DNA of 64,000 bases. Source: Cladocopium goreaui. Taxonomy: Eukaryota; Sar; Dinophyceae; Suessiales; Symbiodiniaceae. The stretch lies in the NCBI GenBank assembly GCA_947184155.2, contig CAMXCT020001502.1, positions 570,942 to 634,941 on the forward strand, read 5' to 3'. Of this stretch, positions 1 through 28,440 are shown one piece after another. The notes beneath the pieces are model-generated. The model searched no databases, was not told the DNA's origin, and saw only the letters and a list, made by a program, of their open reading frames with translations. The position numbers were made by a program, and so were the translations under genes. The stretch's first letter is position 1; the number at the start of each line of letters is the position of its first letter.

Positions 1-460
1 GAAGCTATCCACTTGTGCTGGAAGCAGAGTCTGATCAACTCTGTGTACCTGCAAAATTTGGTTTCAACTGTTGATCAAGCTGTTACACTGCGTTGTTTCG
101 AATCTACACGGTTGCCACAATCTGTATTGCATGCATCAGAACCTTCCTCAGATTTTCGCCGAAACCATATCGCCGACAGTATTATGATTTTTTGACATAT
201 TTTCGCCGAGATCATGTCGCCGACGAACTTTGGGTTATTTTGGGAAACAATCGCCGAAACATTATTGTGGATTCTCAACATGCTGGTTAAAACTCTATGG
301 ATTCTGGTTTTGACTTCGTTTGACAACATTGGATGCCCTACATCGTTTTCGAGAAGTACCTCATGTGGCTCCTTTACTAATCTAACGATCTAGGCTGGTT
401 TGCATGTTTCAGGATTCAGTTCCTGCCGGATCATATAATGATCCATTCTTGTCTAGTGTG
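1..460 (+). repeat. Left terminal repeat, type A (partial)
   Basis: Identical, as read, to 12,549-13,008. It begins inside the pseudoknot linker (GAAG of AACGAAG) and contains the 3' arm of stem 2, the hairpin CAGAGT/ACTCTG, a possible intron from GTACCTGC (45) to TTTCAG (ends 412), and a terminal segment with the perfect hairpin GGATCAT-ATA-ATGATCC (428-444). It ends CTAGTGTG, and the element interior starts with ATTTCC. Confidence 0.85.
156..257 (+). promoter_or_regulatory. Phased TCGCCGA cluster in the terminal-repeat intron, type A
   Basis: TCGCCGA occurs five times, starting at 156, 170, 203, 217 and 251. Spacing alternates 14, 33, 14, 34 bases. The same cluster is in the right copy at +12,548 and a similarly spaced one is in type B. 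It may bind a protein or promote transcription; the function is not known. Confidence 0.4.
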
Positions 461-5246: not shown

Positions 5247-5291
5247 CTAGCAGCCTATTTGAAAGCACCTGGCTCAAAAGCAGCCAACATT

Positions 5292-8016
5292 ATGCGAACT
5301 TTGGCCGTGGCTCATTCCTGTATTCTTGTTCTTGCACTTTTGACTCCTTTCACGTTGTCCCCTTCTGTTGATGTCTTTTTTGTTTTTCGGATGCTCCAAA
5401 CAGTATTGATGGGCCAATATGTGTTATTACATCCACGGGCCAATCCGAAACTCCAAGCCTTGCTCAAAGGCACTCCGATGCAGAGTATTTTCTTTTGCAG
5501 ATCCTGGGATGACTTGTCTGTCGCCCTCCAATGTTTCAAGCATCCTCAGGCGGTGTATATCCGTTTCTGTCACATTGCGAATTTTCAACCTAAGTTTTAT
5601 GTTGGGTCCACGTCTTCCTTTGTTTTGGACCGCGAACACTCTCGCTATCGGAAATTTCTGCAAGTGCAACAACATAAATTCGTGCTGGCCGAAGTTGCCT
5701 TACGGTTTTGGTGCAGATTTGACAATTTCTGGATGTGGTCTGTTTTCCCGATCTACACCAATAAATCCAACTTTTGGGCCTTGGAACAGGCCTTAATTCA
5801 ATTGTGGCAACCTCGATTGAACACCCCGTTCATTTACCAGTTTTTCAATTGCCGAAAGGGACTCATTGCACGTACCAAATTTTCCGCCTCTCGACAATTT
5901 GGAACATTTTCCTTGTGGCGGAAACTTCGCTGGCGATCTACACCTCATCATGTTCGACACGCCCTTCATAGTCCTCTTTTCCATCGACGAGTACAACTTT
6001 GGGAGATTATCCAGGATTTGGGCAGTAACTCCGTTCGACGCTTCCACATGGAGAAGAAACTACGATCCAACGAAATTGGAGTTCAAGGCTGCTACTTTAT
6101 CCGACGTCTTGCCAACAATCTTGGAGAACCTCAAAGGTCGTACGCCGTCAATGCCGTTGACCGAGCTTTGACCTTCTGGAAAGCCAAACGAGTCAGAAAA
6201 CCGGTTCCTCTTCGTGCGCCTTGGCTACTATGCCCCAACTGGACTCGGGATCTTCGACGCCTACTCACCTCCCACGTTCATCAAACCCGACACTACAACA
6301 CCACATTGCAGACTCCTTCCACGGCGATTGTCTTCACAAAGTTCCCCTCGGTGATGGATAGCTTGTGCAATCACAAAGAAGCCGCTACCAAATGGGCTGA
6401 CGGCGAAACCCCAAAGTGTGCCTGTGATGCCTTGCGACCTCATGCTCTTCGTGGTCTCCCACCCGATCAACACCTGGTCCTCGACGGCGACAACCTACAT
6501 TTCGATGATGGCCCACACACATCCATTGCGACTGGTTCGCTTCAAAACAAAATCTTCCCACCTTCCAAAGAAATCCAGACATCGCTTCGCCTGGCTTTGC
6601 GGACATGGACTACCCGAAACTCACTCCCTTCCTTACAAAAGTCCCATATTGATGAGCTTTGGCATCGTTCTATTCAATCCCACTACCACACACTCAACAA
6701 CCACATCACTCACAAAGACATCGGCCGCTTCAAACGTCTTTTTCCAGAAGCCGTCTTCCACAACGAGGACAAGCGAGCTACATCCCTACGAATCTACTGC
6801 CCCGTACTCTACTTCCAGTGCCTCACCACCACCTTTGCCGACCCGTTGGTATTTCGTAAATTGGAGCAAAGCCCGAGTGACATCATCGAGCGGACCATCG
6901 CCGAGATCAATCGCCATTTTGGCAAAGCATACCCATGGGCACTTGGAGCTGGACGAGATCTGCCGAATGCCTATGTTCTACCCAAAAGGAAAAAACAGTT
7001 CAAGGCTGGACGACCTATTGTCAGCTTCTTCACGGCACCTTTCCGACCTATGTTGAACTGCACTGCCAAGCTGATTTACAACCTTCTACCTCAAGCGTTT
7101 CCCCACAACCTGGCCAGGGGTGATGTATTTGATCTCATCAAGCTCCTCAAGGACACTGACTTTGATTCGCTCCCCACTCCACGAATACACAACCAAGATC
7201 TTGCGGGCTTTTTCACAAGCATTGACACTGACCGCTTCATCGCGAGCTGGCGACTGACCTTGCAGTTCCTCTCGACCCTCATGAATACCGACCCCGATGA
7301 GATCATCTCCGTGAAGGCAACTCCGGGCAACAACACAGGGGACGTTGTAAAAGGCCGCACATGCCGTACACTCAATGTGACCAGGAAGATCTTCATTCGG
7401 GACATTGAACGCATCATCCTCATGTCTTTGAAGATGACTCAATTCTCCATTGGCACTACGGTTTTTGAACAAATCCGAGGATCCCCGATGGGCTCCCCAC
7501 TGAGTCCAGCTTTGTGCATGATGGTTGTCGCACTGTCTGAAGAAATCTGGTACAAAACCTACCGCACCACCCTTAGCAACATGGATCTTACAGCTCGCCT
7601 CCTTCGCTATGTGGACAACAGACTGTGCTTGTCGGACCCCAGCTGGGACTACGAAATTTGCTTCGCCAATTTCCTCCACCCGGAGTTCTACGGCCATCCT
7701 ATCATTTTGGAAACGGAACCGGACCAGGAGTTCTTGGGCTTTTGCATCGAGTTTGAGCCTTTTGCCCTTCGCTACAGCCCCACGCGACTTCAACCAGGTC
7801 ATGGCGCCATTCTCCGCATCACCTTTGGCCGTCCAACTTTCAGGCTTTGTTTCACGATTATTTCTGGTCGCCAAATGCGCGCACCCTACACATGAACGAA
7901 CACGAGGTTTTGCCGCATTGCATCGTTTGTACAGATCTGCAGGTTTCACCGAGTCCGATCTTTTCGCTGCCGCCAAGCCGATTCGTCAATATTTGCACGT
8001 TTCCTTATTGTGGTAA
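5292..8016 (+). pseudogene. ORF3 of element A: GIY-YIG nuclease plus reverse transcriptase, frameshifted near the C-terminus
   Basis: The start at 5,292 (MRTLAVAH) is shared with B. A GIY-YIG domain lies at residues ~88-180: VYIRF (Y89), FYVGST (Y103, G105), basic residues in DREHSRYRKF (from about 110), glutamate E165 and asparagine N177 in the LxxAL...P-x-LN region. The RT follows: GRPIVSF in the fingers, QDLAGFFTSID (636-645; motif A), GSPMGSPLSPALC (730; motif B), RYVDN (772-776; motif C, with N in place of the second D), and EFLGFCIEF (motif D). Near 7,786 two bases of a CG run are missing compared with B. The original frame ends at 7,895, while the conserved C-terminus continues in another frame to 8,016. 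The undamaged protein would have been about 908 residues. It probably nicked target DNA and copied the element RNA. Confidence 0.85.
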
Positions 8017-8189: not shown

Positions 8190-8822
8190 ATGGCTTCCTC
8201 GTCTCCTACGACGTCAATTCCGATCCAAGAACCAGTGTTTCTTCAATTTCTTCATGATGTTCACCATGCTTACCTTCTACTACATCGAGCAATGGCGCTA
8301 CTACCACCTACACTCATTCCCAACATTGAACCTACTCCTCTTCCCAGTACAGACGTATGGAATCAACCTGATGGGCTACGACCACACTATTCGGACCAGA
8401 CCAATGCCTTCATTGACAATGCCCCCATCCCATCGCCGGATCTGGAGGAGGAAGAGACACTTATGGATGAACTGGTGGAAACCCATCTCCCTGAGCCGCA
8501 CCAACATGTTGCTGCTCCGCCTCCTGATGTTTTACCTGCACCTTCGAAGCTTTCTACTAGAACACCATCACCGCCAAGTCGCAAACAGAAAGCCAAATCC
8601 GCTCCAAAGGCTCCTGCCAAGCGTCGTCGTCGACGTGACCAATCCCGATCCCGCTCCTCGAGCCCACTGTCACTCTGGACCTCTGAAGACAAACAGAAAC
8701 TACGCACTCTGAAGGCTGACGAGAAATCTCGATTTTCATGGAAGGTGATCTCGACCAAGATGGGCAAGTCTGAAGAAGATGTTCGCTCTATGTGGAATAA
8801 GATCAAAGACCAACTTGGCTGA
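8190..8822 (+). CDS. ORF4 of element A: Myb/SANT-like DNA-binding protein
   Basis: 210 residues; the ATG at 8,190 (MASSSPTTS) is conserved in B. The N-terminal third is hydrophobic/helical, the middle acidic and proline-rich, and a basic cluster KRRRRRDQSRSRSSSP (near 143-158) looks like a nuclear localisation/RS segment. The last ~50 residues match the Myb/SANT pattern, with three tryptophans at 163, 184 and 202, spaced about 20 and 18 residues as in Myb repeats, and the phrase WKVISTKMGKSEEDV. It may bind the element's own DNA or a target site, or steer transcription; this is inferred from the domain only. Confidence 0.85.
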   Translation: MASSSPTTSIPIQEPVFLQFLHDVHHAYLLLHRAMALLPPTLIPNIEPTPLPSTDVWNQPDGLRPHYSDQTNAFIDNAPIPSPDLEEEETLMDELVETHLPEPHQHVAAPPPDVLPAPSKLSTRTPSPPSRKQKAKSAPKAPAKRRRRRDQSRSRSSSPLSLWTSEDKQKLRTLKADEKSRFSWKVISTKMGKSEEDVRSMWNKIKDQLG

Positions 8823-8997
8823 CCAATGACATATGCGAACCAAAAGAAAAAGGTACGTTGCGGTACGGTATTCCTGTTTCACCAACCAGTTGGCCTTCCT
8901 TTTGGGAATTTTCTTCTTGTTAATCTTCAGAACCATGGGCGCTGTTGTCCCATTGAATTCTGACACGTCGTATCACACAACCCGCCAGCCATTTATT

Positions 8998-9669
8998 ATG
9001 TCTCTCCGCGTTCACCTGGACCGCTATTGCCAACAGCGAGCTATGTCCCACGAGAGGATCTCACCTACACGACGCTCACGCTCTCCAACCAGGACGTCAT
9101 CTTCCGCTATGGGCTCTACGTCATTTCAGCACCCACCCAACCGGTCTTCGCCTCCGACACCTCACCGACCGGTTATTTTCCAGTTGGACCTGAAGCCGAT
9201 GCAACAACTGGCCGTACGCAACCCTTATTACAACATCTTGAACCCCAAAGTCGCGGGCAACCTTCCTACGGCCACCTATGACAGCTTGTTCCAGACGTTC
9301 AAGGTGATCTACCCGGACTATGCTCGCAGTCATTTCGTTTCAGACCTCAAAACCGTCGTCACCGACACGTTGCTACAACGCTGGTCCATACACCTACCAG
9401 CGTCGGAGTTCTACATGATGATTGACACCGATCAAGGAGCTCAGATGCTTGACGACCTTCCTCATTCTCTTCTGGATGTTTTGAATTGGTTCTACCCGAG
9501 ATGGAAAACTCATCAACATCTCGATGCCTTCACGACCCGTGAGTGTTCACCATTGCTGCTGACACCCCATCCAGATGCACAAGACACCGGCTTTGCTGTA
9601 CATGTTCAAGTGATTCCACGTGGGCATCCATTCGTCACGGCCACCCGATACACTAAAGCCGCTGAGTGA
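8998..9669 (+). CDS. ORF5 of element A: unknown protein, paralogue of ORF7
   Basis: 223 residues; the ATG at 8,998 (MSLRVHLDRY) is conserved in B, and sequence before it is not. A short RS-like stretch (SPTRRSRSPTR) lies at about 21-32. The rest is a single ordered domain starting RPVIFQLDLKPMQQL and including LLQRWSIHL and LLDVLNWFYPRWK. ORF7 has the same layout (RPVLILVDFSPLQAL; LRSQWDIQI; LLEAYRPEWR), so the two are related by duplication. I recognise no known family. There are no membrane segments or signal peptide. Confidence 0.82.
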   Translation: MSLRVHLDRYCQQRAMSHERISPTRRSRSPTRTSSSAMGSTSFQHPPNRSSPPTPHRPVIFQLDLKPMQQLAVRNPYYNILNPKVAGNLPTATYDSLFQTFKVIYPDYARSHFVSDLKTVVTDTLLQRWSIHLPASEFYMMIDTDQGAQMLDDLPHSLLDVLNWFYPRWKTHQHLDAFTTRECSPLLLTPHPDAQDTGFAVHVQVIPRGHPFVTATRYTKAAE

Positions 9670-9833
9670 TTAGCTGTCTTGATGGATCTTGGCACGGCTC
9701 ATGTCTATGAGGAAAAAGACCAACATTCGTTATGATGTCCACCACCCCGGTTCTGATTTTCCCTTGTGTCATCCTTTTCTCGTTTTCCATTGGGTGATAT
9801 TCGTTATTTATTCCTTCATCATTGACCTTCCCC

Positions 9834-9856
9834 ACGACCTTTTGGCTTCAGTTCAG
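9834..9856 (+). promoter_or_regulatory. Candidate trans-splice acceptor before ORF6 (A)
   Basis: TTTTGGCTTCAGTTCAG ends 32 bases before the start. The same GGCTTCAGTTCAG stands 32 bases before ORF6 of B. Confidence 0.45.
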
Positions 9857-9888
9857 TATTTCTCGTTATCATACTCTTGTGATCGTAC

Positions 9889-10578
9889 ATGATGACCTCC
9901 AACACGGATCATCCTGCTCGATTGGTCTCGCACCGTTCACCACCTACATCCATACATGGCCTTGCCTCACACTTGCCACCTGATGATCCTACCTCGGCAT
10001 CCTATATTCCTCGTGCAGCGAGAATGATTCCGACCTCTACCACTGTCCACTCCGTCTTCATCAAGAAGCTGAGCTATCCTTTGTCTAACCGTTCAGATGA
10101 ACTTTGGATCGTGGAAAGGACACTTGATGGTCTTGAAACGTGGAAACCAGTGGAAACATTCCTGGAGAACATGCACCTCACCAACGACCAGGCGACCTTG
10201 CGTACTACAGCTAACCATTGGCGCAGATACTATGACGTACCAATTCAATCATCATCCTCCTCCCCTACGGCAACTACTGTTCCCGTTTTACCACACCCTG
10301 AACACTCCAACGTCTCTGTCTCACAGCCGTACGAAGCGATACCGGACCACCTCCATATTTTACAGTCATGCTGGGGACGCTCTGCCCAACACCATTCTCA
10401 AGGAACTACTACCTCTTTATATTGGCCACCTTGGCGGTCTACACCACCTTCTTCCCCACCGGCAACACTACAACGTACTGTACATCTCACTCGCCCCGCT
10501 GTCCCTCCTCAACAAGTACATGGTCCGCTGGATGCGAATGATATTGACCCGATGGATACGTCGGACTCAAGTGTGTAA
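9889..10578 (+). CDS. ORF6 of element A: unknown protein, paralogue of ORF8
   Basis: 229 residues from the ATG at 9,889, which aligns with the start in B. The N-terminus is flexible. A conserved core at ~45-125 contains VHSVFIKKLSYPL, ELWIVERTLDG and LRTTANHWRRYYDVPI. ORF8 has corresponding VHQIQFK, ELFIEE and LRTADYWRHHFEIPL, so the pair is homologous. The C-terminal 100 residues are serine/proline-rich and vary between elements. Function unknown. ORF6 sits with ORF5 as the first of two similar gene pairs. Confidence 0.82.
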   Translation: MMTSNTDHPARLVSHRSPPTSIHGLASHLPPDDPTSASYIPRAARMIPTSTTVHSVFIKKLSYPLSNRSDELWIVERTLDGLETWKPVETFLENMHLTNDQATLRTTANHWRRYYDVPIQSSSSSPTATTVPVLPHPEHSNVSVSQPYEAIPDHLHILQSCWGRSAQHHSQGTTTSLYWPPWRSTPPSSPPATLQRTVHLTRPAVPPQQVHGPLDANDIDPMDTSDSSV

Positions 10579-10698
10579 TATACCACATTATTTGTCGGCA
10601 GGAAAAAGACCTGTGATTCATCGTCTCTTTGTGTGACCATTTACTAGGTACACCGTTTCTCGTTCATTTCTAACACTTTGAGCTGGTTTCTGTGGCTA

Positions 10699-10716
10699 TT
10701 CCAACCCATTTTGCAG
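10699..10716 (+). promoter_or_regulatory. Candidate trans-splice acceptor before ORF7 (A)
   Basis: TTCCAACCCATTTTGCAG followed by CTTGGGCTT, 43 bases before the start. Confidence 0.45.
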
Positions 10717-10759
10717 CTTGGGCTTTTCGCTTTATCCTCGATACTTCACATTCGACGCA

Positions 10760-11353
10760 ATGGCTCGTTCTTCTCGACCCAATCCATATCGCGCTACATC
10801 CACGATTGAGACACCGCTTGGTACACGAACCGTTGGATGGATTGCTGGACATCGAGGCCTTCCTGGTGATGCGAACCCTCCTCCAAACAGACCTGTCCTT
10901 ATCTTGGTTGACTTCTCTCCCCTACAGGCATTGACTCACCGAAGCGAACCTGACCGTGAACACTACATGGCTCTGGTGAACTCCAATTTTAGACATGTCA
11001 GTGGCTTTGAACTTGCAGCTTTGTTTACCTGGTCACGTCAGATGGAACCAGTTGAAGCCGGCCTCATCCCAATTGCCGAACTTCGCTTCTGTATCTCCAA
11101 AAGATTGAGGTCCCAATGGGACATCCAAATTGATCCCTCGAATCTGGAGTTTCGCTTTTGCGACCTGGACGGTGAGACATTCCAAGTTTCCAATGATATG
11201 ACGGTCTTGCAGCTTTTGGAGGCATACCGACCTGAATGGCGACTTCGGCAGTACAACTCCCGTGAATCTTCTTTCCTCATTCCGGGTACCAGACAGCCTT
11301 TCGTACTACGTTTGCAATGCTACAAAATTAGCTCCGGTGTGATCCTGCCCTGA
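10760..11353 (+). CDS. ORF7 of element A: unknown protein, paralogue of ORF5
   Basis: 197 residues; the ATG at 10,760 (MARSSRPNPYRATS) is conserved in B. It lacks the RS stretch of ORF5 but aligns with the ordered domain of ORF5 from RPVLILVDFSPLQAL to the end. The conserved aromatic positions in LRSQWDIQI and EAYRPEWRLRQ are shared. An AG after a pyrimidine-rich stretch (TTTTGCAG, ends 10,716) lies 43 bases upstream. No known family recognised. Confidence 0.82.
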   Translation: MARSSRPNPYRATSTIETPLGTRTVGWIAGHRGLPGDANPPPNRPVLILVDFSPLQALTHRSEPDREHYMALVNSNFRHVSGFELAALFTWSRQMEPVEAGLIPIAELRFCISKRLRSQWDIQIDPSNLEFRFCDLDGETFQVSNDMTVLQLLEAYRPEWRLRQYNSRESSFLIPGTRQPFVLRLQCYKISSGVILP

Positions 11354-11544
11354 TACGCTAGCCGGCCAAAAAAGACCATGCTAGAGGGTTTTCAATTCTT
11401 CCTTGACAACCCACTAACACACAGGATTCTTCGATTTCTATTTTATTTGACTTTGAGCTGTGGCTTCTCCGTCGCAATTGACCCACTTGCTTGAGGACTG
11501 GATTTCACTTTTATCATTTTTGTGAATATTATCATTTTCGGGAT

Positions 11545-11575
11545 TGGCTTTTTTCTGCAATTCTTGATGCTTCAG
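11545..11575 (+). promoter_or_regulatory. Candidate trans-splice acceptor before ORF8 (A)
   Basis: A T-rich stretch ending GATGCTTCAG, 41 bases before the start. Confidence 0.45.
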
Positions 11576-11616
11576 CCGTTGTTGCACTATTTCTCGCATT
11601 TGTGACAGTTTCACCC

Positions 11617-12345
11617 ATGGAACACAAACGAGACGCGACCGTGGCGGGCTTGTCTTGGCCTTCGAATCCTACCCGTGGACTCGCTCCTACCAATCCAGTT
11701 CAAGTACCAGACGCCCAGACTTCTGCACTATGTCACTCAGGAGCTCCCGACACTACGACCAACCCTACGTCGGCACCTTTGGTCACTGACAGTACGGCAC
11801 CTGCCACGGATACTATGGCCCATCCTGATACATATTCAGGACCAGCACCTCCTTGCGTCCCGTTTCCAATGGAGTCAAGTTCTGCACACAACTACCTCCA
11901 TCGTGCTCAATTCTCTTCTCGCGTGGTTCACCAGATCCAATTCAAGGTCATTACCCACTCCAACAACACCAGGGAGCTTTTCATTGAAGAAATCCCCTTG
12001 CTAGGGCATTCCCGCTGTCGTGACCCTGAACACTACTTTTATGGTCTTTCGGGCAATTGGGAGTGGTCCCTACGTACAGCGGACTATTGGCGACATCATT
12101 TCGAGATTCCCCTTGTACACGGACACCATCCTTTTCACAATGTGCCCATTGAGACGACATCTCCAGCAGAGGAACCGAGCCTTACCACCCGGATCCACGA
12201 ATTAGCCACGGATCTTTCTGAGGCCTTGAAGGCTGCTACGGCATCTGGGGAATTCAATGAGACGTGGGCGATGGTTGAACGCATGAGCTTCCACGATGCT
12301 TTCGAAGTCCTTCTACAAGCTCCGAATTCTTCTTCTTCTGACTGA
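11617..12345 (+). CDS. ORF8 of element A: unknown protein, paralogue of ORF6
   Basis: 242 residues from the ATG at 11,617 (MEHKRDATVAGL), the start shared with B. The N-terminal ~95 residues are low-complexity. The core (about 105-175) with RVVHQIQFKVITHSNNTREL, a YFYGLSGNWEW loop and LRTADYWRHHFEIPL is the counterpart of the ORF6 core. The C-terminus is helical and acidic. Function unknown. It is the last ORF before the 3' non-coding segment and right terminal repeat. Confidence 0.82.
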   Translation: MEHKRDATVAGLSWPSNPTRGLAPTNPVQVPDAQTSALCHSGAPDTTTNPTSAPLVTDSTAPATDTMAHPDTYSGPAPPCVPFPMESSSAHNYLHRAQFSSRVVHQIQFKVITHSNNTRELFIEEIPLLGHSRCRDPEHYFYGLSGNWEWSLRTADYWRHHFEIPLVHGHHPFHNVPIETTSPAEEPSLTTRIHELATDLSEALKAATASGEFNETWAMVERMSFHDAFEVLLQAPNSSSSD

Positions 12346-12454
12346 AGTGATCGCCCGTTTGTACATTTGGTTTTTACAGGTTCACTCTCACTGGTGTATT
12401 GCCGATTCCGCCAGCGAAGTTCTTCCAAAAAATCCAACCTCGCTATATGCGAGG
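12346..12454 (+). other. 3' non-coding end of element A with terminal hairpin
   Basis: About 109 bases after ORF8. It contains a TTTTTACAG acceptor-like site, the conserved box GTTCTTCCAAAA, and hairpin CCTCGC-TATAT-GCGAGG (12,438-12,454) directly before (TG)n. In B the same box is followed by CCGC-TACAT-GCGG (25,586-25,598). In C the position holds CCCGGC/GCCGGG (27,156-27,172). Confidence 0.5.
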
Positions 12455-13006
12455 TGTGTGTGTGTACCATCTGAACAGATGTAAAACTTCTGATTGGTTT
12501 TCACTAGTTTGCAGGGGGGTGCAGAGCACAGTGGAGACTGCACCCAACGAAGCTATCCACTTGTGCTGGAAGCAGAGTCTGATCAACTCTGTGTACCTGC
12601 AAAATTTGGTTTCAACTGTTGATCAAGCTGTTACACTGCGTTGTTTCGAATCTACACGGTTGCCACAATCTGTATTGCATGCATCAGAACCTTCCTCAGA
12701 TTTTCGCCGAAACCATATCGCCGACAGTATTATGATTTTTTGACATATTTTCGCCGAGATCATGTCGCCGACGAACTTTGGGTTATTTTGGGAAACAATC
12801 GCCGAAACATTATTGTGGATTCTCAACATGCTGGTTAAAACTCTATGGATTCTGGTTTTGACTTCGTTTGACAACATTGGATGCCCTACATCGTTTTCGA
12901 GAAGTACCTCATGTGGCTCCTTTACTAATCTAACGATCTAGGCTGGTTTGCATGTTTCAGGATTCAGTTCCTGCCGGATCATATAATGATCCATTCTTGT
13001 CTAGTG
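12455..13006 (+). repeat. Right terminal repeat, type A
   Basis: A complete type A repeat. In order: (TG)n, hairpin CATCT/AGATG (12,468-12,481), pyrimidine-rich stretch to GCAG (ends 12,514), GGGGG and the pseudoknot, hairpin CAGAGT/ACTCTG (12,573-12,591), a possible intron from GTACCTGC (12,593) to TTTCAG (12,960), then the terminal segment with hairpin GGATCAT/ATGATCC (12,976-12,992) ending CTAGTGTG. The next element (B) begins in the shared TG run. Confidence 0.85.
12515..12591 (+). ncRNA. Candidate pseudoknot RNA, type A
   Basis: Stem 1 pairs GGGTGCAG (12,517-12,524) with CTGCACCC (12,538-12,545). The bases between the two arms hold the 5' arm of stem 2 (AGCACAGTGGA, 12,525-12,535). This pairs with TCCACTTGTGCT (12,556-12,567) beyond stem 1, with one bulged T, giving an H-type pseudoknot. 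The crossing loop starts AACGAAG (12,546-12,552). A hairpin CAGAGT/ACTCTG follows. GCAG stands just upstream and GTACCTGC just downstream, so the structure would be one whole exon. Confidence 0.7.
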
Positions 13007-13070
13007 TGTGTGTGTGTAACATCTGAACAGATGTAAAACTTCTTTTGTTCTAATCTTTTCACATTTGCAG

Positions 13071-13150
13071 GGGGATGGAGAGGACATATGAGGCTCCATC
13101 CAACGAAGCTCCTCATATGATCCTAGGATATCACCAGGGACGCCTGGTGA
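13071..13150 (+). ncRNA. Candidate pseudoknot RNA, type B (left)
   Basis: Stem 1: GGATGGAG (13,073-13,080) with CTCCATCC (13,094-13,101), 8 bp. Loop 1: AGGA. Stem 2: CATATGAGG (13,085-13,093) with CCTCATATG (13,111-13,119), 9 bp. There is no base between the stems. Crossing loop: AACGAAGCT, 9 nt. A hairpin TCACCAGG/CCTGGTGA follows. None of the stem sequence is shared with type A. Confidence 0.75.
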
Positions 13151-13322
13151 CGTACCTGCAGTTCGAATTTTCTGGAATAGCATGGGGCCAAGCTAAGAAC
13201 CCCAAAGACGAACATGATACATTTGCACGGTTGTCACAATCTGAACTTCACGTCGTGTCGCATCAGAACCTTCCTCAGAGCAAGGACGTAGAAAACATTT
13301 TTGTAACATTTTGTTTACATGA

Positions 13323-13389
13323 TCGCCGACAACATCGTCGCCGACATATTTATTTATTTATTGGCTAATCTTCGCCGAGACATCGCCGA
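13323..13389 (+). promoter_or_regulatory. TCGCCGA cluster in type B repeat
   Basis: TCGCCGA starts at 13,323, 13,338, 13,372 and 13,383 (spacing 15, 34, 11). The surrounding sequence is unlike type A, so conservation of motif and approximate spacing stands out. The same cluster recurs in the right B copy near 25,919-25,985. Confidence 0.4.
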
Positions 13390-13567
13390 TGATAGTATTG
13401 CTGGTTTATTTATTCTTTGTGATGTCGATTCTGAACCCGATGACCATTCTGAAGTACTTCTATTATTCGTAGGATGCATCGGTAATTTCATTGTTTCGTA
13501 TCTAATCTGCATGTTTCAGGATTCAGTTCCTGCCGGATCATATAATGATCCATTCTTGTCTAGTGTG

Positions 13568-14105: not shown

Positions 14106-16732
14106 ATGTACCCGTGGACTACTCCTCCGACTTCATGGCCTGCCCCGCCGCAGCCTACGAATCCATCTTCGACGTGGCCACAATCAACGCAGAACGCGCA
14201 TTTATTTGGACAGCCTTCGCCACTACATCCTACATGGTCTTCGTCGTCTTCGCTCATGCCGTCTACGTCAGTTACACCATCTTTACCATCCTTGCCATTT
14301 ACATCACTGACTTCGGCCCCTCATGCGGTACCAGCCCCTCAAATCGTGCCGACAATGCCCACACCTCTGGCCCCTGAAACCACTATGATGCACACCGCTC
14401 CACCGACCTTCACTACTCCTCCGGCACCCACCGCTCCACCCACATGGCATTCTGCTCCAGCTCCATCGCCTATAACGACTACTCCACCGACACCATTGCC
14501 GAGCTCTCCATACCCACCTCGCCATCCTCACCCTCCACTATTGACGGAAGCATCTATGGTTCCTCCAGATGAACCTCCATTACCGGCAGTTAAGGCTGCC
14601 CCAAAGCTTCGCTCCGACAAGAGACCTGACAAACCACGTCGTTCAGCTCCCAAAGCCTCTGCCCCTGCGGCACCACCGGCACCAACGGCAGCACCGTCTC
14701 CATCCATTTCACCAGAACTTGCAGCGCTGGGCTCCACTACACAACAACTTGCCGAATCTGTTCGTCTTATTCAAGCTCAACAGCAAATGATTCTGGATTC
14801 TCAACGCGCCCAAGAACAACGTCAGCTACTTATTCACCACGATGTACCTGCACCGGACCCTACACCGCCTACACCATTACCTACAACAACCACACCACCT
14901 ACGGCCATGCCCCCACCTGCACCCAAAGCACGACCCACCGAACCTGAAGTTCCTGACCATCGCATCCTTCCTGGCCCAGCCACTTCTCCTCCTCACCACC
15001 TACATGCTCCAACATCGCCAGCGCACAGACCACGATCCAGGGCTCCACGATCACGCTCTCGTCGACCTTCTGCACAACCACATCATCGTCGACATTCTCC
15101 TCGCCGTGATGTTCGACCTCGTTCTCCCCTTCCTCGATTTCGGTCTTCCACGAAACACGACAAGGACCGCAGAACTCCTTCTCCATACAGACGACGATCA
15201 CCGCCAAGACGCCGCTCCCCCGTGGTTCCTCGACGTCATCGATCTCACCCCAGACCACGTTCCAACACCCCTCGTCGACGTTCCAGCGGCCGCGAAGTCG
15301 TACTACGACCAGCTCCACGCCCATCCAATCCGGCCTACATCCCCACACCTGATGCTGATGACACCTGGGGCGAATGGGACAACAGTCACTACCCCGACGA
15401 CTACCATCACAGCACTGCTCGACCCAACTCTCCCGCCGGACCACCACCACCTGAACCATCCACCAACCCACCATCACAACCCGCAGCACCACTTGGAGCC
15501 GTGGCCTTCCGCGTCCCTGACGGTGACAGCGAAAACTCCGAGGTGACAGATACATTTTCGATCTCAAAATTTGACACGAATGACATCGACCTCAGTGAAA
15601 TGGTTGAGGCGGCCAATGATCCACTCAAGGTACGTTGCTTGACCGAGCTCGAACCCGACTACACAGTACCCCTACGCCAATCCTTGAACCATTCCAACAT
15701 GCAGCTCTTCAACCAGTTCGTTGACGAAATGTTCCACCAGTTGGCTCAACCATATCGCACCGTTAACAACCAACTTATTTTCATCAAAGCAAGTCAAGCC
15801 ACCGTCAAGAACATTGCCAGGGCCTTTGCACAATCCAGATTACTGGACATCGAGCTGGCGAAGCAAACCAAAGCGTTTTATATCGAACCAGAGAACCTGC
15901 TGACCATCACTGTCCCAACGGGATTGCCCAAGAAACCGATCTATCGTGGCGAGCACATGGGCACCTACCTGATTTACCACAAAACGAGTTGGGAAACAGT
16001 TGCCAAGATCCTTGCTGAAGATTGCATTCGCCCGGCAACTTGGACAAAAAACGAAGCCGGCTACCCGACTCAATACCCATGCTACGGGTTCTTCGGCATG
16101 TCCTCGGAGATTCCTGACATCGATACCCTACCGGGCTATGCTGTCAAGGTATGTACATCTCAGCTTTACCGTATAGGGAAAGGACAAAACCCATCTGGCC
16201 TATTGGCCATTTGTCGCTCTCCCAAATGCATACGGGCCCTATCTGGAGGAAATGACCAAATTCAACGCTTGTGCAATCTATCGGGCATCTCCAAGGGCAA
16301 AGACAATGCAACGGCTATGAACTCCAGCGCTGCATCAATATGCTATGTTGCTTCTACTCATTCGGTTTACCCAGGCTTGATCACACACACCAGGCAGCGG
16401 AAACAAACCCACCCACTGCCGCAGCACCCACTGAACCACCAGCTGATCATGAACGTCCAGCAGGCCCTGACCCTACCGCTGACACACCTGCACCTTCAGA
16501 CCCACCTCCAGACGACTCTCGAGCGACAACCAGCCACTACGAGACTGCCGAACATGCCCCACGAGATCATGCTCGCCGACATTGGCACGACAATGCTTCT
16601 TGGGACAGTTCAACCTACAACCGTCGGGATCGCCGTTCCTCCTATCGCGAAGGCCATTCTCGAGATCAGCACCGTGAAGGCCAACCTCGTTCTCGAAACT
16701 CGACATACAACCAATCCAGATCTCGCTGGTAG
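14106..16732 (+). pseudogene. ORF1 of element B, broken by a 2-bp insertion
   Basis: Aligned to ORF1 of A over its whole length, starting MYPW against MHPW. At about 16,381-16,390 the short CA run has one CA more than in A. The frame then shifts and runs on as a false extension to 17,111, through the spacer into the region before ORF2. The true RS-rich tail continues in another frame and ends at the TAG at 16,730-16,732, matching the SRSRW end of A. The proline-rich part, RS region and ordered domain are intact up to the break. Confidence 0.8.
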
Positions 16733-16996
16733 ATACTTCACCCTCGAGGAGTACCTGGCAAACTGTCGACTATTCCGCGACAGCGATCCAGTGAGCCTAG
16801 TGGCCTTGCCCGATTCTTTTGGAGTAACAATGCTTCTCCCGACATTCGGTATTGATGCCACTTCTTCCATCAAAAGGTCTTTGAATCGCTGCATGCTCAT
16901 GGTATTGGAATTTTGCGTTACCTCGATTTTCACCTCACGTCTCACACACGGACTGTTTACCATGTTTCACACCTTTCTGATCGCACGCCACCTTCG

Positions 16997-17020: not shown

Positions 17021-17079
17021 TTTTCAGTTGGCTAATCGAGCTTATTTTGATCTATCACCTCGTGGTTCCCGTCTACATC

Positions 17080-18429: not shown

Positions 18430-21137
18430 ATGAGAACTTTGGCCGTGGCTCATGCTTGTATTCTTGCCCTTGCATTGTTGACCCCCTTCACTTTGTCTCC
18501 TTCTGTTGATGTCTTTTTTGCTTTCCGGATGATTCAAGCTGTATTGATGGGCCAGTATGTGTTATTACATCCACGAGCCAATCCGAAACTCCAAGCCTTG
18601 CTAAAAGGCACTCCGATGCAGAGCATTTTCTTTTGCACATCGTGGGACGACTTGACAGTCGCCCTCCAATGTTTCAAACACCCTCAGGCGGTGTACATAC
18701 GCTTCAGCCATATTGCTAATTTCCAACCAAAGTTCTATGTGGGTTCCACTTCTTCTTTTGTTTTGGACCGTGAACACTCTCGCTATCGGAAATTTCTGCA
18801 AGTGCAACAAAACAAATTCGTGTTGGCCGAAGTTGCCTTACGGTTTTGGTGCAGATTTGACAATTTCTGGATGTGGTCTGTTTTTCCGATCTACACCAAT
18901 AAATCCAACTTTTGGGCTTTGGAACAAGCCTTAATTCAACTATGGCAACCTCGACTGAAGACTCCGTTCATTTACCAGTTTTTCAATTGCCGCAAGGGAC
19001 TCATTTCGCGTACCAAATTTTCCAATTCACGGCAATTTGGAGCATTTTCGTTGTGGCGGAAACTCCGTTGGCAATCTACACCTCAGCATCTTCGACGCGC
19101 TCTTCATAGTCCTCTTTTCCATCGACGAGTACAACTCTGGGAGATTATTCAGGATTTGGGCAGCAACTCCGTCCGACGCTTCCACATGGAGAAGAGACTT
19201 CGATCAAATGAAACTGGCGCCCAAGGATGCTATTTCATTCGACGCCTTGCCAACAACCTTGGAGAACCTCAAAGGTCGTACGCAATCAATGCCATTGACC
19301 GTGCCTTGACCTTCTGGAAAGCCAAACGAGTCCGAAAACCGGTTCCCCTTCGTGCACCTTGGCTACTAGCACCCAATTGGACCCGCGACCTTCGACAGTT
19401 GCTCACTTCCCATGTCCATCGAACCCGATGCTACAACACCACCTTGCAGACTCCTTCGACCGGGATTGTCTTCACAAAGTTTCCGTCGGTTATGGACAGC
19501 TTGTGCAACCACAAAGAGGCCGCTACCAAGTGGGCTGATGGCGAGACTCCAAAATGTACCTGTGACGCTTTACGACCTCATGCTCTTCATCATCACCAAT
19601 CTGATCACCACTTGGTCCTGGAGGGCGACAACCTACATTTCGATGAAGGCCCACACACATCCATAGCGACGGGCTCGCTTCAAAACAACATTTTCCCACC
19701 CTCCAAAGAAATCCAGATATCCCTTCGCCTTGCTTTGCGGACGTGGACTACCCGGAACTCACTCCCTTCATTACCAAAAACCCATCTTGATGAACTTTGG
19801 CACCGATCTATTCACTCCCACTACCACGCCCTCCACAATCACATCACGCACAAAGACATCGTACGCTTCAAACGCCTCTTTCCAGAGGCCATCTTTCACA
19901 ACGAGGACAAGCGAGCTACATCCCTACGAATCTACTGCCCAGTACTCTACTTCCAGTGCCTCACCACCACCTTCGCCGACCCGTTGGTGTTTCGAAAATT
20001 GGAGAACAGCCCAAATGACATCATCGAGAAGACCATCGCCGAGATCAATAACCAATTTGGCAAGGCGTACCCATGGGCCCTTGGCGCTGGACGGGACCTA
20101 CCGAATGCCTACGTCCTGCCCAAGCGGAAGAAACAGTTTCGGGCTGGGCGACCCATTGCTTTCCGGCCCATGTTGAACTGCATCGCCAAACTGATCTACA
20201 ACTTACTGCCCCAAGCGTTTCCCCACAACTTGGCAAAAGGCGATGTCTTCGACCTCATCAAGCTCCTCAAGGACACCGACTTCGATACGTTCCCTACTCC
20301 GCGTATACACAACCAAGATCTTGCTGGTTTTTCACAAGTATTGACACTGACCGCTTCATCGCCAGCTGGCGACTGACCTGGCAATTCCTCTCGACCCTCA
20401 TGAGTACCGACCCCGACGAAGTCATCTCAGTGAAGGCGACCCCTGGCAATACCACAGGCGACGTAGTCAAAGGCCGCACGTGTCGTACACTCAATGTGAC
20501 CAGGAAGATCTTCATTCGTGACATTGAACGCATCATCCTTATGTCCTTGAAGATGACCCAATTTTCCATTGGCACTTCTGTTTTCGAGCAAATCCGCGGC
20601 TCTCCTATGGGCTCCCCACTGAGTCCGGCGTTGTGCATGATGGTCGTCGCACTTTCTGAAGAAATCTGGTACCGAACTTACCGTACTACCCTGACTACCA
20701 TGGATCTTACAGCTCGCCTCCTTCGCTATGTTGACAACAGACTGTGTTTGTCGGATCCTTCGTGGGACTACGAAATCTGCTTCGCCAATTTCCTTCACCC
20801 GGAGTTCTACGGCCACCCAATCATTTTGGAAACGGAACCGGACCAGGAGTTCTTGGGCTTTTGCATCGAGTTCGAGCCTTTCGCCCTTCGCTACAGCCCT
20901 CCGCGCGACTTCAACCAGGTCATGGCCCCATTCTCCGCATCACCTCTTGCAGTTCAACTTTCGGGTTTCGTCTCACGATTATTTCTGGTCGCCAAATGTG
21001 CGCACCCTGCACAAGAACGAACGCGAGGTTTTGCCGCATTGCACCGTTTGTACAGAGCAGCAGGTTTTTGCGAATCCGACTTAGCTGCCGCTGCCAAGCC
21101 TATCCGTCAATATTTGCACACCTCTTCATTGTGGTAA
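18430..21137 (+). pseudogene. ORF3 of element B: GIY-YIG plus reverse transcriptase, doubly damaged
   Basis: Aligned to ORF3 of A from MRTLAVAH to the end SLW. Two lesions are seen. First, an 18-bp in-frame deletion at about 20,157 removes the residues between GRPI and FRPM, part of an RT fingers motif. Second, one T is lost from the T run at 20,328-20,332 inside motif A, so the frame shifts and the first part stops at 20,376. The remaining RT motifs B, C (RYVDN, 20,724-20,738) and D, and the C-terminal region intact here but broken in A, lie in the next frame up to 21,137. The GIY-YIG domain (from about 18,690) is intact. Confidence 0.85.
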
Positions 21138-25489: not shown

Positions 25490-25598
25490 ATGACCGCGGC
25501 TATGTACACTAGCACCGTGTAGCCTTATTGGATTTGAGTGGTTCTGCTGACCTCAGCCGCGATGTTCTTCCAAAATAATCAAACCCCGCTACATGCGG

Positions 25599-26162
25599 TG
25601 TGTGTGTGTGTGTAACATCTGAACAGATGTAAAACTTCTTTTGTTCTAATCTTTTCACATTTGCAGGGGGATGGAGAGGACATATGAGGCTCCATCCAAC
25701 GAAGCTCCTCATATGATCCTAGGATATCACCAGGGACGCCTGGTGACGTACCTGCAGTTCGAATTTTCTGGAATAGCATGGGGCCAAGCTAAGAACCCCA
25801 AAGACGAACATGATACATTTGCACGGTTGTCACAATCTGAACTTCACGTCGTGTCGCATCAGAACCTTCCTCAGAGCAAGGACGTAGAAAACATTTTTGT
25901 AACATTTTGTTTACATGATCGCCGACAACATCGTCGCCGACATTATTTATTCATTTATTGGCTAATCTTCGCCGAGACATCGCCGATGATAGTATTGCTG
26001 GTTTATTTATTCTTTGTGATGTCGATTCTGAACCCGATGACCATTCTGAAGTACTTCTATTATTCGTAGAATGCATCGGTAATTTCATTGTTTCGTATCT
26101 AATCTGCATGTTTCAGGATTCAGTTCCTGCCGGATCATATAATGATCCATTCTTGTCTAGTG
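25599..26162 (+). repeat. Right terminal repeat, type B
   Basis: Nearly identical to 13,007-13,567. I see one indel and one substitution in the AT-rich part near 25,940, and one substitution near 26,070. It is followed without a gap by the (TG)n start of type C. Confidence 0.85.
25667..25746 (+). ncRNA. Candidate pseudoknot RNA, type B (right)
   Basis: Same sequence as the left B copy: stem 1 at 25,669-25,676 and 25,690-25,697, stem 2 at 25,681-25,689 and 25,707-25,715, linker AACGAAG at 25,698-25,704. Confidence 0.75.
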
Positions 26163-26428
26163 TGTGTGTGTAACATCTAAATAGATGTAAAACTTCTCTC
26201 TCTTTTTCTTCCTTTGTCCTCTCCCTTTCTAATTCTAAATTCAATGCAGGGGGCCACCGGGGTCCCGGGGGGGTCGGTGGCCACCGAAGACACCCCCCCG
26301 GGACCCGTGTAAACGTACCTGCATTATTCGTAGGATGCATCGTTAATTTCATTGTTTCGTATCTAATCTGCATGTTTCAGGATTCAGTTCCTGCCGGATC
26401 ATATAATGATCCATTCTTGTCTAGTGTG
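26163..26428 (+). repeat. Left terminal repeat, type C
   Basis: A shorter repeat (~266 bp). It has the hairpin ACATCT/AGATGT with loop AAAT, a long CT-rich tract, GCAG, a pseudoknot with a very GC-rich stem 2, GTACCTGC at 26,315, and only ~65 bp to TTTCAG before the common GATTCAG...CTAGTGTG end. The intron-like part with the TCGCCGA cluster of A and B is missing. Confidence 0.8.
26250..26306 (+). ncRNA. Candidate pseudoknot RNA, type C (left)
   Basis: Stem 1: GGCCACCG (26,252-26,259) with CGGTGGCC (26,275-26,282). Loop 1: GGGT. Stem 2: CCCGGGGGGGT (26,264-26,274) with ACCCCCCCGGG (26,292-26,302); pairing can extend by four more bases. Crossing loop: ACCGAAGAC (26,283-26,291), 9 nt. Confidence 0.75.
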
Positions 26429-26909
26429 ATTTCCATGGTGGATCCGACATGGTGCCATGGAGCCATTTGAGGCAACCCTCTTCAGGGTGAGTGTTGACAG
26501 TCTTGAATTCTGAATTCACACATTTTAACTTAGTAATTCGTCTAAGTAAAGGGCAACAATCAGCCTTGCGGTTTTCCAGCCTTTTGAGGTTGTCCCGCTG
26601 CTCTTGTGGTCCCAGGGATTACTCGCCAATGCGTTTCTTCAAATGTGAAGCCGTGCCGAACTTCAGAAACCTCCTTTTTTCGCAGCTGCTTTTGACGATC
26701 CATGACAACAGCATTGGATACAGGAATCAGGCAGGCACATGACTTTCAGGTGTGGTGTTTCTTTCTTTTGATGGTTGTCTGGTGAGGTTAAACATTTTGT
26801 GCATCTAATTCGATGGAACTTGAAAGCCGTTTTATGCCCTTGTGGCTGACTGGAACACGGGCCTGGATTGGCACAACGCACGATCTGTAGGTTTAGGAGC
26901 TGAATCCTG

Positions 26910-27171
26910 TCTTTTATTAATTGTTTTGGTTTCTTGCCTGTCATTAACTAGTCCCCCATTTGGTCCCTAATTTTCCCCGCGTGCCTCTCCGTAATGTGTC
27001 GTGGGGTTTAGGTGTGTGCGCTGTTTTTGGTCAGGTCCGTTTCGCCGTGTAGGTTGGTTCCGGAGGTCCGTCTGTTCCCCTCCCCCCCCTGCGCTGTTTT
27101 TGGCCGTTTGCCCGTCGTGTGTCCGCTTTTTTCTTCCTCTTGCCTTTCAGGGTTGACCCGGCTCCGGCCGG
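26910..27171 (+). other. Unrelated interior segment of element C
   Basis: No similarity to A or B and no ORF. It is G/T- and C/T-rich, and ends in TTTTTTCTTCCTC and TTTCAG followed by a GC-rich hairpin next to the right terminal repeat. Confidence 0.4.
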
Positions 27172-27440
27172 GTGTGTGTGTGTAACATCTAAATAGATGT
27201 AAAACTTCTCTCTCTTTTTCTTCCTTTGTCCTTTCCCTTTCTAATTCTAAATTCAATGCAGGGGGCCACCGGGGTCCCGGGGGGGTCGGTGGCCACCGAA
27301 GACACCCCCCCGGGACCCGTGTAAACGTACCTGCATTATTCGTAGGATGCATCGTTAATTTCATTGTTTCGTATCTAATCTGCATGTTTCAGGATTCAGT
27401 TCCTGCCGGATCATATAATGATCCATTCTTGTCTAGTGTG
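27172..27440 (+). repeat. Right terminal repeat, type C
   Basis: Matches 26,163-26,428 with one visible difference (CTCTCC versus CTTTCC in the pyrimidine tract). Its CTAGTGTG end runs directly into the start of module D. Confidence 0.8.
27262..27318 (+). ncRNA. Candidate pseudoknot RNA, type C (right)
   Basis: Identical in stems and linker to the left C copy: stem 1 27,264-27,271 with 27,287-27,294, linker 27,295-27,303, stem 2 3' arm 27,304-27,314. Confidence 0.75.
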
Positions 27441-27549
27441 TGAACCATCTGAAGAGATGTAAAACTTCTAAGTTTCGCAGGGGGCCCATGGGCACTTGGA
27501 TGGCACGGGCCAACGAAGACCCGTCCAAGTTTCTGTGCAAACGTACCTG
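27434..27549 (+). ncRNA. Terminal module D with candidate pseudoknot
   Basis: Starts GTGTGTG with hairpin CATCT/AGATG (loop GAAG), then a short pyrimidine stretch to CGCAG (ends 27,480) and GGGG. Stem 1: GGCCCATG (27,483-27,490) with CACGGGCC (27,504-27,511), one A-C mismatch. Loop 1: GGCA. Stem 2: CTTGGATGG (27,495-27,503) with CCGTCCAAG (27,521-27,529), one T-G wobble. Crossing loop: AACGAAGAC (27,512-27,520). GTACCTGC follows at 27,543. No GATTCAG end and no second copy lie in the window, so this may be a solo, older or host copy. Confidence 0.65.
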
Positions 27550-28440
27550 CAATTTTTGAATCGTGATGGGGTGTGGCCAACCCAAAAACCATTATGCCGT
27601 TTTTCAACGAGAATCACATCAGGATTTTTGAATTCAGCACATGAACGGATGAAGGTGACTTCTCATTTATCTTTCTTCACAGTCGGCGCAATCTGAGACT
27701 GCGGTGAATCCCTTGTCCACTCCAATTTTCTGCTGATATTTCGGAGTTTCTCCTGGCTTCTATTGATTTTATTCATTCTTCAAGGTGGCGACGAAAGAAT
27801 TTTCCTTTCAGTCCACACCAAACACCCTCCTGTTCCTGTCAGGTGTAACTGGATTGTTTTTGCACGTGAGATGCGCTCCACAACAGAATTCTCAATGACA
27901 GTTCTGAGCAAGTGTGTGTGTTTGTGTGTGTATATACTGTACACTGAACTTTCTGAAGGGGAAGCTGCCTACTACTGCCTACTTGACATGAAATATTTGA
28001 TGATGGAATACACATTTGAATGCAGTCATTCCTGCTTGCAAATTCTTCGAAGTTCCAGGATTCAAGATAGTGATCGAGGGACCTGGATCAAATTTGAAGC
28101 TCCCAGAAACCAAAACCGATGCTTTCAAGCTCCCAGAAACTATTCATGAATTATTTTAAACTTCGAGAAGTAAAAAGAAAAAATGAAGTTCCGCTGGGTT
28201 CAGATTGTTCTCTTCATAAAATAGTGTTTTTGAAAAGGGCATGGATCCAAATGCTGACGTCGATCCTTTTTGACTTGCAATGGATGAGAATGATGACAAA
28301 GTGGTTTTTGAAGTGCTATTAAAGTAAATATGTCAGTATATAGAACCAAATTCGGTTATCTACAAATATATCTCTCTTTTAAGACTTACTTATGATAAAC
28401 ATAATTGAAATCTTTGAAAAGGTAGGCACTGGAGGGGCCG
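27550..28440. other. Flank right of the element chain, no gene recognised
   Basis: After GTACCTGC of module D there is a possible intron end TTCTTCACAG at 27,681. The rest is unique-looking sequence with only short ORFs, and a small duplication of AAGCTCCCAGAAAC near 28,097 and 28,130. Confidence 0.4.

Follow-up and report, generated by a model that had tools for sequence, protein, structure and literature searches.

How Penelope-like reverse transcriptases (RTs) choose the RNA that they copy is an open question. What presents itself as the first in vitro study of an active Penelope-like element (PLE) reports internal initiation and proposes a binding region, and its available part contains no defined recognition fold (PMC11167929). 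In the same paper, the hammerhead ribozyme of an anole PLE is described as protein-assisted and as dispensable for insertion in vitro (PMC11167929). For a rotifer PLE, the terminal repeats (pLTRs) alone were judged sufficient to move an unrelated gene in trans (PMC3846280). Outside the PLEs, vertebrate R2 proteins bind a pseudoknot-hinge-stem structure in the 3′UTR to start TPRT (PMC12180492; PMC12222951), and GACG tetraloops as well as palindromic loops are documented dimer or packaging elements of retroviruses (PMC516450).

The window, i.e., the whole stretch of 64,000 nucleotides of dinoflagellate DNA that was analyzed, contains six full copies of a structured module, all on the plus strand (Table 1). 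They were detected with the pattern GCAGGGGN{6,30}AMCGAAG, which gives no match in 100 shuffles. A covariance model, the training families of which include window modules A and B, retrieves the same six copies and a seventh that is truncated by the start of the window (38 bits, 5′ end cut). A copy of core A is located at C1502:570910, immediately before the window. No description of the module was found in the open-licence PMC literature.

Table 1. Positions of the modules, terminal repeats and RT genes discussed in the text (window coordinates).
Feature	Position	Strand	Remarks
Module A, 3′ part	1..52	+	belongs to element 1's upstream terminal repeat; truncated at window position 1
Element 1, RT ORF	5259..7895	+	878 aa; N-terminal GIY-YIG-like; RT motifs GSPMGSPLSP and RYVDN
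Element 1, 3′ terminal repeat	12454..13003	+	(GT)n start; ...TCTA end, followed directly by the next element's (GT)n; boundaries placed by (GT)n and repeat comparison
Small hairpin (ACCATCTGAACAGATG)	12466..12481	+	directly 3′ of (GT)n; stem changes paired between families
Module A, full unit	12511..12600	+	closed by P0
Module A, P0	5′ 12511-12515; 3′ 12596-12600	+	
Module A, S1	5′ 12517-12524; 3′ 12538-12545	+	
Module A, S2	5′ 12525-12537; 3′ 12556-12567	+	one bulged base
Module A, loop AACGAAG	12546-12552	+	
Module A, P4	12572-12578/12586-12592	+	loop CTGATCA 12579-12585
Module A, GTA	12593-12595	+	
Element 2, 5′ terminal repeat	13004..13567	+	carries module B; 3′ boundary approximate
Module B, 5′ copy of element 2	13067..13159	+	P4 loop GACG
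Element 2, RT ORF	18430..20376	+	648 aa; 90% identical to that of element 1; continues out of frame 20073-21137
Element 2, 3′ terminal repeat	25598..26159	+	
Module B, 3′ copy of element 2	25663..25755	+	
Short element	26160..27435	+	module C in both repeats (second repeat 27172-27435); inside the (GT)n end of element 2
Module C, first copy	26246..26322	+	P4-less class (mini-hairpin GTG-TAAA-CGT); loop ACCGAAG
Module C, second copy	27258..27334	+	1012 bp downstream of the first
Single terminal repeat	27436..27911	+	carries module D; ...TGAGCAA end before GTGTG
Module D	27477..27550	+	P4-less class; within the single terminal repeat

The modules of the window are RNA units of about 75–100 nt (GCAGG...CCUGC) that are closed by an outer helix, P0. 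Inside P0 there are an 8-bp stem S1, a stem S2 and the crossing loop AACGAAG; most modules also have a 3′ hairpin, P4. A first-pass annotation had proposed a pseudoknot built on four unrelated sets of stem sequences, and the six copies indeed fall into the types A, B, C and D. Its 8-bp stem 1 holds for all four types, with a single A·C mismatch in D, and A[AC]CGAAG is found directly 3′ of S1′ in the window copies. The proposed loop 1 of about 4 nt does not exist, as stem 2 begins at the first base past S1 in 31/32 of the families defined below. Stem 2 itself is present, not with the 7–11 bp given for it but with 8–15 pairs in 31/32 families and 6 in the degenerate family L074. Moreover, the unit extends over 12511-12600 instead of 12515-12591, since the GCAGG/CCTGC closure and the 3′ hairpin belong to it.

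A typical S2 has an outer part of 4–5 bp and an inner part, separated by a bulge or small internal loop. Such an interruption, by a bulge or an internal loop, occurs in 27/32 families, and S2 is continuous in 5/32. As S1 and S2 follow each other without a 5′ spacer, a long straight S2 could hardly be bridged, so the break is read as a needed hinge. Such a hinge would leave the five continuous families, including L024 of the C group, unexplained. S1 is of constant length and is spanned by a loop of seven nearly invariant bases plus two, which suggests that these bases lie in the S1 groove, whatever the sequence of S1. In fold predictions for six single sequences either S1 or S2 appears, the method being unable to show both together, and two folding z-scores are weak, at −1.01 (module A) and 0.15 (module D). 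Fold prediction alone therefore does not establish the pseudoknot.

The pairing evidence comes from comparison between families. In the fetched loci (40 regions) and the window, 103 copies were found (overlapping loci counted repeatedly), with 50 distinct cores and 32 families. Only letters served as anchors, pairing being disregarded: a copy had to contain GCAGGG, the loop and GTACC, so that copies having lost these fall outside the sample, and the degenerate family L074 was retained among the 32. The alignment of the 32 families was built on sequence only and is not fitted to the structure. The strong covariation that had been claimed from four stem sets now extends to 32 families, with a score of 0.718 as compared to 0.159 (sd 0.013) for shuffled and 0.09–0.13 for slid alignments. 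S1 is paired at at least 7/8 positions in 32/32 families vs. 8.7% of cross-family pairings, and its inner 6 bp are perfect in 31/32 families vs. 2.0%. When the five helices are taken together, 90.7% of the cells are paired, against 59.6% after shuffling and 32–40% after sliding; by helix the values are 99.4% for P0, 99.2% for S1, 78.3% for outer S2, 74.2% for inner S2 and 99.4% for P4. The pairing is weakest in the S2 helices of this sequence-only alignment. The median energy of S2 with its own partner is −17.65 kcal/mol vs. −5.6 across families, and the own partner is the best of all in 26/32 families. At the base of P4, A·C (19) and G·U (8) interchange over all 27 P4-bearing families. The dinucleotides that follow the loop and S2′ co-vary as well (AC/GU 15, CU/AG 6, CU/GG 5, GC/GU 1), the exceptions among the 32 families being CU/UG (3), CU/AA (1) and one gap.

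P0 is near-invariant (GCAGG/CCTGC), apart from one lineage group with the double change GCGGG/CCCGC, first met in L159. The compensated form GCGGG...CCCGC occurs at 153 places in the genome (79 + 74) vs. 22 in the control (12 + 10), and 98 of the 100 matches listed are modules by eye. The single-sided search covered the 3′ (C-side) change, which alone occurs at 29 places (15 + 14), 14 of them modules by eye, with 213 + 181 in the control. As the copies with the double change are all related GTCACCG/GATCACCG modules, they may stem from one or few events. An arrangement of the form (GT)n...TTTGCAG/G resembles a dinoflagellate intron, and a splice site was considered for this reason; it was rejected, as the compensated change fits a helix and not a splice site. 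On the sense strand G·T exceeds A·C by 14 to 4 in P0, S1, outer S2 and P4, and by 16 to 10 in inner S2, which is a modest sign that the transcribed structure is the sense-strand RNA.

The module is abundant. In the searched genome of 1.17 Gb, the pattern of the first-pass annotation matches 2381 + 2298 places vs. 181 + 173 in a reversed control. A GC-rich repeat in L018 and L072 fits GCAGGGG...ACCGAAG without the fold (L018, 16 bits) and is a false match of that pattern. The ends-only pattern GCAGGGGN{52,82}GTACCTGC matches 4,622 places (2339 + 2283) vs. 77 in the control (39 + 38), and all of the 100 matches listed are modules by eye. Although this pattern leaves the loop free, 84 of those 100 carry A[AC]CGAAG; the variants among them are AATGAAG (10), AACAAAG (2) and four others that differ singly. 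AATGAAG and AACAAAG resemble CpG decay. The exact 21-nt spliced-leader sequence of dinoflagellates is present at 81 + 91 places and absent from the control, which identifies the host genome as that of a dinoflagellate. An exact pattern gave 74 matches in viral contigs (IMG/VR), with model scores of at most 24.3 bits and 19 of them at E ≤ 1. In prokaryote contigs (one genome per species), 13 matches to a slightly longer pattern were obtained, at 11.6–22.7 bits. Full dinoflagellate copies score at least 34.9 bits, and both groups are therefore taken as chance matches; no credible module was found by these exact patterns, which variants would escape, in IMG/VR or the one-genome-per-prokaryote-species set. 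Rfam returned neither a ribozyme nor another credible match, for the window at gathering scores and for seven loci at E ≤ 10.

Elements A to D of the window follow one another head to tail, each beginning in the (GT)n end of the preceding one. The terminal repeats share one plan: (GT)n, the small hairpin, the module, and then a ...AGTGTG end against TG-rich flanking DNA. These ends were read by eye at the loci with a visible right end, i.e., L039, L042, L052, L077 and window position 27912. The stem of the small hairpin differs across families and stays paired (CATCT/AGATG, ACCGTT/AACGGT, CCCT/AGGG, TCCGC/GCGGA, ACTGC/GCAGT). The module lies about 100–410 nt from the 3′ end of the repeat, as placed in window coordinates. 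Of 68 distinct copies read with at least 150 nt upstream, 66 are preceded by a (GT)n run at no more than 220 nt (24–138 nt away), so that most inserted copies read do not start at a point within the motif. In a genome this rich in TG, some of these runs may be accidental. Short elements of about 1.0–1.4 kb, in which the longest stop-free stretch is 90–206 aa (11 fetched regions), follow the same plan as RT-coding elements of 7.6–12.6 kb. The short C element likewise lacks a long ORF, its longest stop-free stretch in 26160-27911 being 126 aa. Direct terminal repeats in tandem, a PLE feature, are present: two repeats surround one body in L039, L042 and L052 (right flank seen), and L077 has three, at both ends and between the bodies.

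Other structures accompany the repeats. Just 3′ of the module there is a second hairpin (window 13184-13203; L041, L044, L046 and others) whose 4-bp stem varies while its 12-nt loop stays similar, i.e., GGGG-CCAAGCTAAGAA-CCCC, CCGG-CTAAGCCAAGTA-CCGG and GTGG-CTAACCCAAGAA-CCAC; by eye, the repeat thus seems to contain a further covarying RNA element. A GC-rich hairpin ends the element body right before the next (GT)n (window 12440-12456, 25583-25598 and 27155-27172; L041, L050, L077). Tandem arrays with units of 323–324 bp and 68 bp, at 45625-47037 and 49453-53059, are unrelated to the module.

The first-pass annotation had connected the repeats with Penelope-like elements, and the hosts do look Penelope-like, with RT and GIY-YIG motifs and direct terminal repeats in tandem. 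RVT_1 (Pfam) is found in 3/6 proteins, weakly, with a best E of 0.002 and 14.3 bits in P0002 against a curated cut-off of 29.6. The N-terminal GIY-YIG match is weak as well (2/6 proteins, E 0.16 in P0002), and a profile search gave no PDB match. In the alignment of the six proteins, the RT motifs RPIV, D-x-AGF, GS-MGS, YVDN and LG can be read, and FY-G-T...RE and CxC...H...H are invariant. An N-terminal EN with CCHH is a feature of the Naiad/Chlamys clade. From the motifs, the weak Pfam scores and the pLTR-like arrays, the elements are likely Penelope-like. A hammerhead in the pLTR, which is a common although not universal PLE trait, has no Rfam match in the window. RTs of module-bearing elements are down to 23% identical. 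For a 931-aa RT ORF at least 19 full-length copies with 99–100% identity, 18 of them without a stop, are present among the matches listed, and these near-identical copies indicate that activity may be recent. Elements 1 and 2 contain several more long ORFs beside the RT (window 955-12345 and 14106-25489). Ten ORFs of element 2 have no match above the curated cut-off in Pfam. A multi-gene Penelope-like element would be unusual.

The module travels between unrelated elements as an exact cassette. Among 75 copies compared, cores that are at least 90% alike lie within unrelated flanks (L019/L034, L047/L061, and the C group with L017); conversely, near-identical flanks enclose different cores (window A type/L047 and L052/window C). 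The 30-nt S1–S1′ core GGCTGCAG... is present at 159 places (75 + 84; control 0). The 41 same-strand spacings among the 100 places listed comprise 23 of 4.3–4.9 kb, 7 of 1.0–1.4 kb, 7 others and 4 of 8.19 kb, each of the latter with an intact 913-aa RT ORF, RT presence being scored among the RT matches listed. Twenty of these copies with flanks (18 fetched, L041 and L044) show an RT-bearing flank type, common to the 4.4–4.9-kb and 6.3-kb copies read, and nine others. Compared to the RT-bearing type, the nine have an identity of 0.47–0.62 upstream and 0.54–0.74 downstream, and some of them have one flank in common with each other. Core A of the window is present at 122 places (51 + 71; control 0), with 31 spacings among the 100 places listed (18 of 12.5–12.8 kb, 7 of 1.06–1.37 kb, 6 others). 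From 14 fetched copies of core A, three (L185, L188, L189) have the window's flanks, L190 is degenerate, and ten were compared closely.

In nine of those ten comparisons module A is unchanged over 90 nt and in the tenth it carries a single change, while the flanks differ up to the edges; eight copies with the GGCTGCAG core show 0–2 changes of 96, one of them with a 3-base insertion. Left out of these 18 comparisons were L171 and L174, in which the P0 start is altered, and RT-type copies. Identity stops 0–3 nt upstream of GCAGG in 18/18 and 0–4 nt downstream of CCTGC in 14/18; the other four run on for 12–35 nt into a shared downstream part. L169 joins the upstream part of one type, the GGCTGCAG module and the downstream part of the window A type (by eye), so that three parts make up one mosaic repeat. 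L047 and L061 have S1/S2 in common and differ in P4, which indicates that breaks inside the module occur too. One and the same module is used by both RT-coding and short elements. Such exact transfer between unrelated elements suggests that the module is probably a handle for RNA pick-up and copying, and identical modules in RT-coding and short elements that otherwise share little, amid unrelated flanks, are what a mobilization signal predicts. The packaging or priming RNA that had been mentioned in the first-pass annotation is supported as a possibility.

We consider it about an even bet (probability roughly 0.5) that the module is a cis-acting mobilization signal recognized by the RT complex, functionally like the avian R2 3′UTR pseudoknot. 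According to this model, the RT complex would read the nearly invariant single-stranded parts, i.e., AACGAAG along S1, the GAUA/GUACC junction and the GCAGG/CCUGC base, with the helices as a scaffold that is free to change in sequence. The end of the repeat (...AGUGUG) would prime on (CA)n target DNA, and the self-complementary P4 loops would kiss, pairing two RNA copies. Since P0 closes off the domain, an RT that is copying could then switch templates at the base of the domain and exchange whole domains, by which a short element could acquire the module of another element; a switch at this point of a stable structure would account for the exact edges of the cassettes. The structure, the copy number, the position in the repeats, the exact-cassette exchange and the presence of one module in both RT-coding and short elements are observed, and RT recognition, (CA)n priming, kissing and template switching as the exchange mechanism are inferred. 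The distance of about 100–410 nt to the 3′ end of the repeat speaks against an R2-like placement, as the R2 pseudoknot nearly adjoins the RT start. A further step, to be taken tentatively, is that the module may act as a transferable “mobility handle” that is closed by its own helix and makes any RNA copyable by Penelope-like RTs in trans, with P4 kissing leading to handle swaps by template switching. If so, the thousands of elements in this genome would be one recombining population of handles and payloads.

The P4 loops of the 32 families, partly read by eye, are GACG (11), AACG (1), TGATCA (10), CGATCA (1), TGCTCA (1) and TGGCCA (3), with five families lacking P4. Self-complementary loops on a stem (TGATCA, TGGCCA), as in the retroviral DIS, are present, GACG being self-complementary at its central CG only. 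In the genome TGRYCA loops number 1,335 (684 + 651; control 0); by eye, the 100 listed comprise 83 TGATCA, 17 TGGCCA and no mixed form, i.e., neither TGACCA nor TGGTCA. A double change of neighbors between AU and GC within one loop is understandable when two copies of that loop pair with each other, and P4 with a self-complementary loop probably lets two RNA copies kiss. A genome search for TGYNCA loops gave 5 places, none palindromic, and TGTACA and TGCGCA were not found in it, so that the case for kissing consists of two palindromes and GACG. A protein that tolerates just these loops would yield an identical picture.

One alternative gives P4 the leading part. The module would then mainly be a genome-dimerization and packaging signal, similar to the retroviral psi/DIS, in which kissing P4 loops pair two RNAs for co-packaging. 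All 27 P4-bearing families do have GACG/AACG (12), TGATCA or a one-base variant (12) or TGGCCA (3), the mixed loops are missing from the 100 matches listed, and GACG tetraloops and palindromic loops have a retroviral precedent (PMC516450). The 5/32 families without P4 and the lack of TGYNCA-type palindromes beyond the two argue against it, and it leaves the pseudoknot itself unexplained. Moreover, Penelope-like elements are not known to form particles, and this reading seems rather improbable. About as improbable is a new self-cleaving ribozyme that has taken the place of the hammerhead and cuts tandem transcripts to unit length. Its location would match that of hammerheads in pLTRs (PMC11167929; PMC6431247; PMC4918200), which keeps a ribozyme in consideration; the module is compact and pseudoknotted with nearly invariant unpaired bases, and in a tandem array such as L077 the three repeats both flank and separate the bodies. 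Neither the window nor the seven loci searched at E ≤ 10 match an Rfam ribozyme family, 66/68 copies read reach the upstream (GT)n instead of a fixed start in the module, and a ribozyme would not require that unchanged modules are shared. The hints of self-cleavage in the first-pass annotation consequently find no support. Its statement that the module is not a hammerhead stands, as the window has no Rfam match and no CUGANGA/GAAA core with three stems was seen. By eye, the six block orders of permuted hammerheads in the available part of PMC10085705 do not fit either. A hammerhead that is not circularly permuted was tried from the P4 loop CTGATCA, which is similar to CUGANGA, and was rejected: the place of G8 is a C and other families have GACG or TGGCCA. 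The absence of an HDV P3, also stated earlier, was borne out, since S2 fills the 10–15 nt between the S1 strands and leaves no room for this hairpin; Rfam was negative here as well. Hammerhead, HDV and other known ribozymes were thus rejected on Rfam (the window and seven loci) and on topology.

It is a less probable reading still that the stems serve as a strict address, in which every RT family would recognize its module by the stem sequence, while short elements would carry the module of their helper. The modules of RT-coding families do differ (L043 GCGTGCAG, L157 GAGTGCGG, L158 GGCTGCAG), short elements bear those of RT-coding elements with 0–2 changes, and in the module-A elements L205/L206 the RT is spread over several frames, which would be expected of parasites that depend on an active helper; the RTs of L205/L206 may indeed belong to parasites. 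Against an address speak the RTs of elements 1 and 2 in the window, which are 90% identical while the modules are unrelated, and the unchanged module A in the L184/L186 elements, the RT pieces (L205/L206) being 36–57% identical to the RT of the window. Both observations favor reading of the invariant parts instead of the stems. The exact cassette edges could also point to a single-stranded-DNA or site-specific-recombination structure, similar to attC, with GCAGG/CCTGC as exchange sites. The modest sense-strand excess of G·T over A·C (14 to 4, and 16 to 10 for inner S2) argues against this, as does the lack of a recognized recombinase among the ten ORFs of element 2 in Pfam alone, and we regard such a structure as highly improbable.

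The mobilization signal that we prefer bears on how RNAs are chosen for copying. A compact domain marks RT-coding as well as short elements; it exists in thousands of natural copies, comprises dozens of unrelated stem sets and covaries very strongly. Recognition, dimerization and cleavage can each be tested directly on such a domain, for which transcripts of about 90 nt suffice. Its exchange as an exact cassette shows that an RNA domain is inherited separately from the element surrounding it. For repeat annotation in dinoflagellates, the module is a reliable tag.

Compared to known systems, the module resembles the hammerheads of Penelope-like pLTRs and retrozymes in being a structured RNA at the same position in the repeat and in occurring in coding and non-coding elements. 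It differs from them in topology, in lacking the CUGANGA/GAAA core and an Rfam match, and in showing no sign of cleavage. HDV ribozymes have the strand order P1-P2-P1′-CGAA-P2′. The module follows this order, but it is without P3, P1.1 and the P4 of HDV and possesses an additional P0 and 3′ hairpin. Non-coding elements that share their tail with a LINE, as SINEs do, have mainly RNA structure in common with the RT-coding partner; in contrast to such tails, the module is an internal, exactly bounded domain that has been exchanged many times, also across RT lineages. The R2-A 3′UTR RNA of birds and testudines resembles it in having a small pseudoknot, an A-rich linker of specific sequence and a following stem, and R2 RNA is recognized by the RT for the start of TPRT (PMC12180492; PMC12222951). 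The RT clade and the fold differ, however, as the module has P0, an 8-bp S1 and a hinge in S2, with AACGAAG instead of the R2 hinge GAAAAG. Unlike in R2, it is present in both terminal repeats, about 100–410 nt from the repeat end, where the RT presumably starts. With HIV DIS and the GACG hairpins of MLV and alpharetroviruses it has palindromic hairpin loops and GACG tetraloops in common (PMC516450), although the host element is not a retrovirus. Finally, the 3′ fold of Athena terminons is likewise a structured RNA in a PLE, with repeats that match the nearby target; terminons combine a hammerhead with telomeres (PMC6431247), whereas the elements described here combine a pseudoknot with (TG)n.
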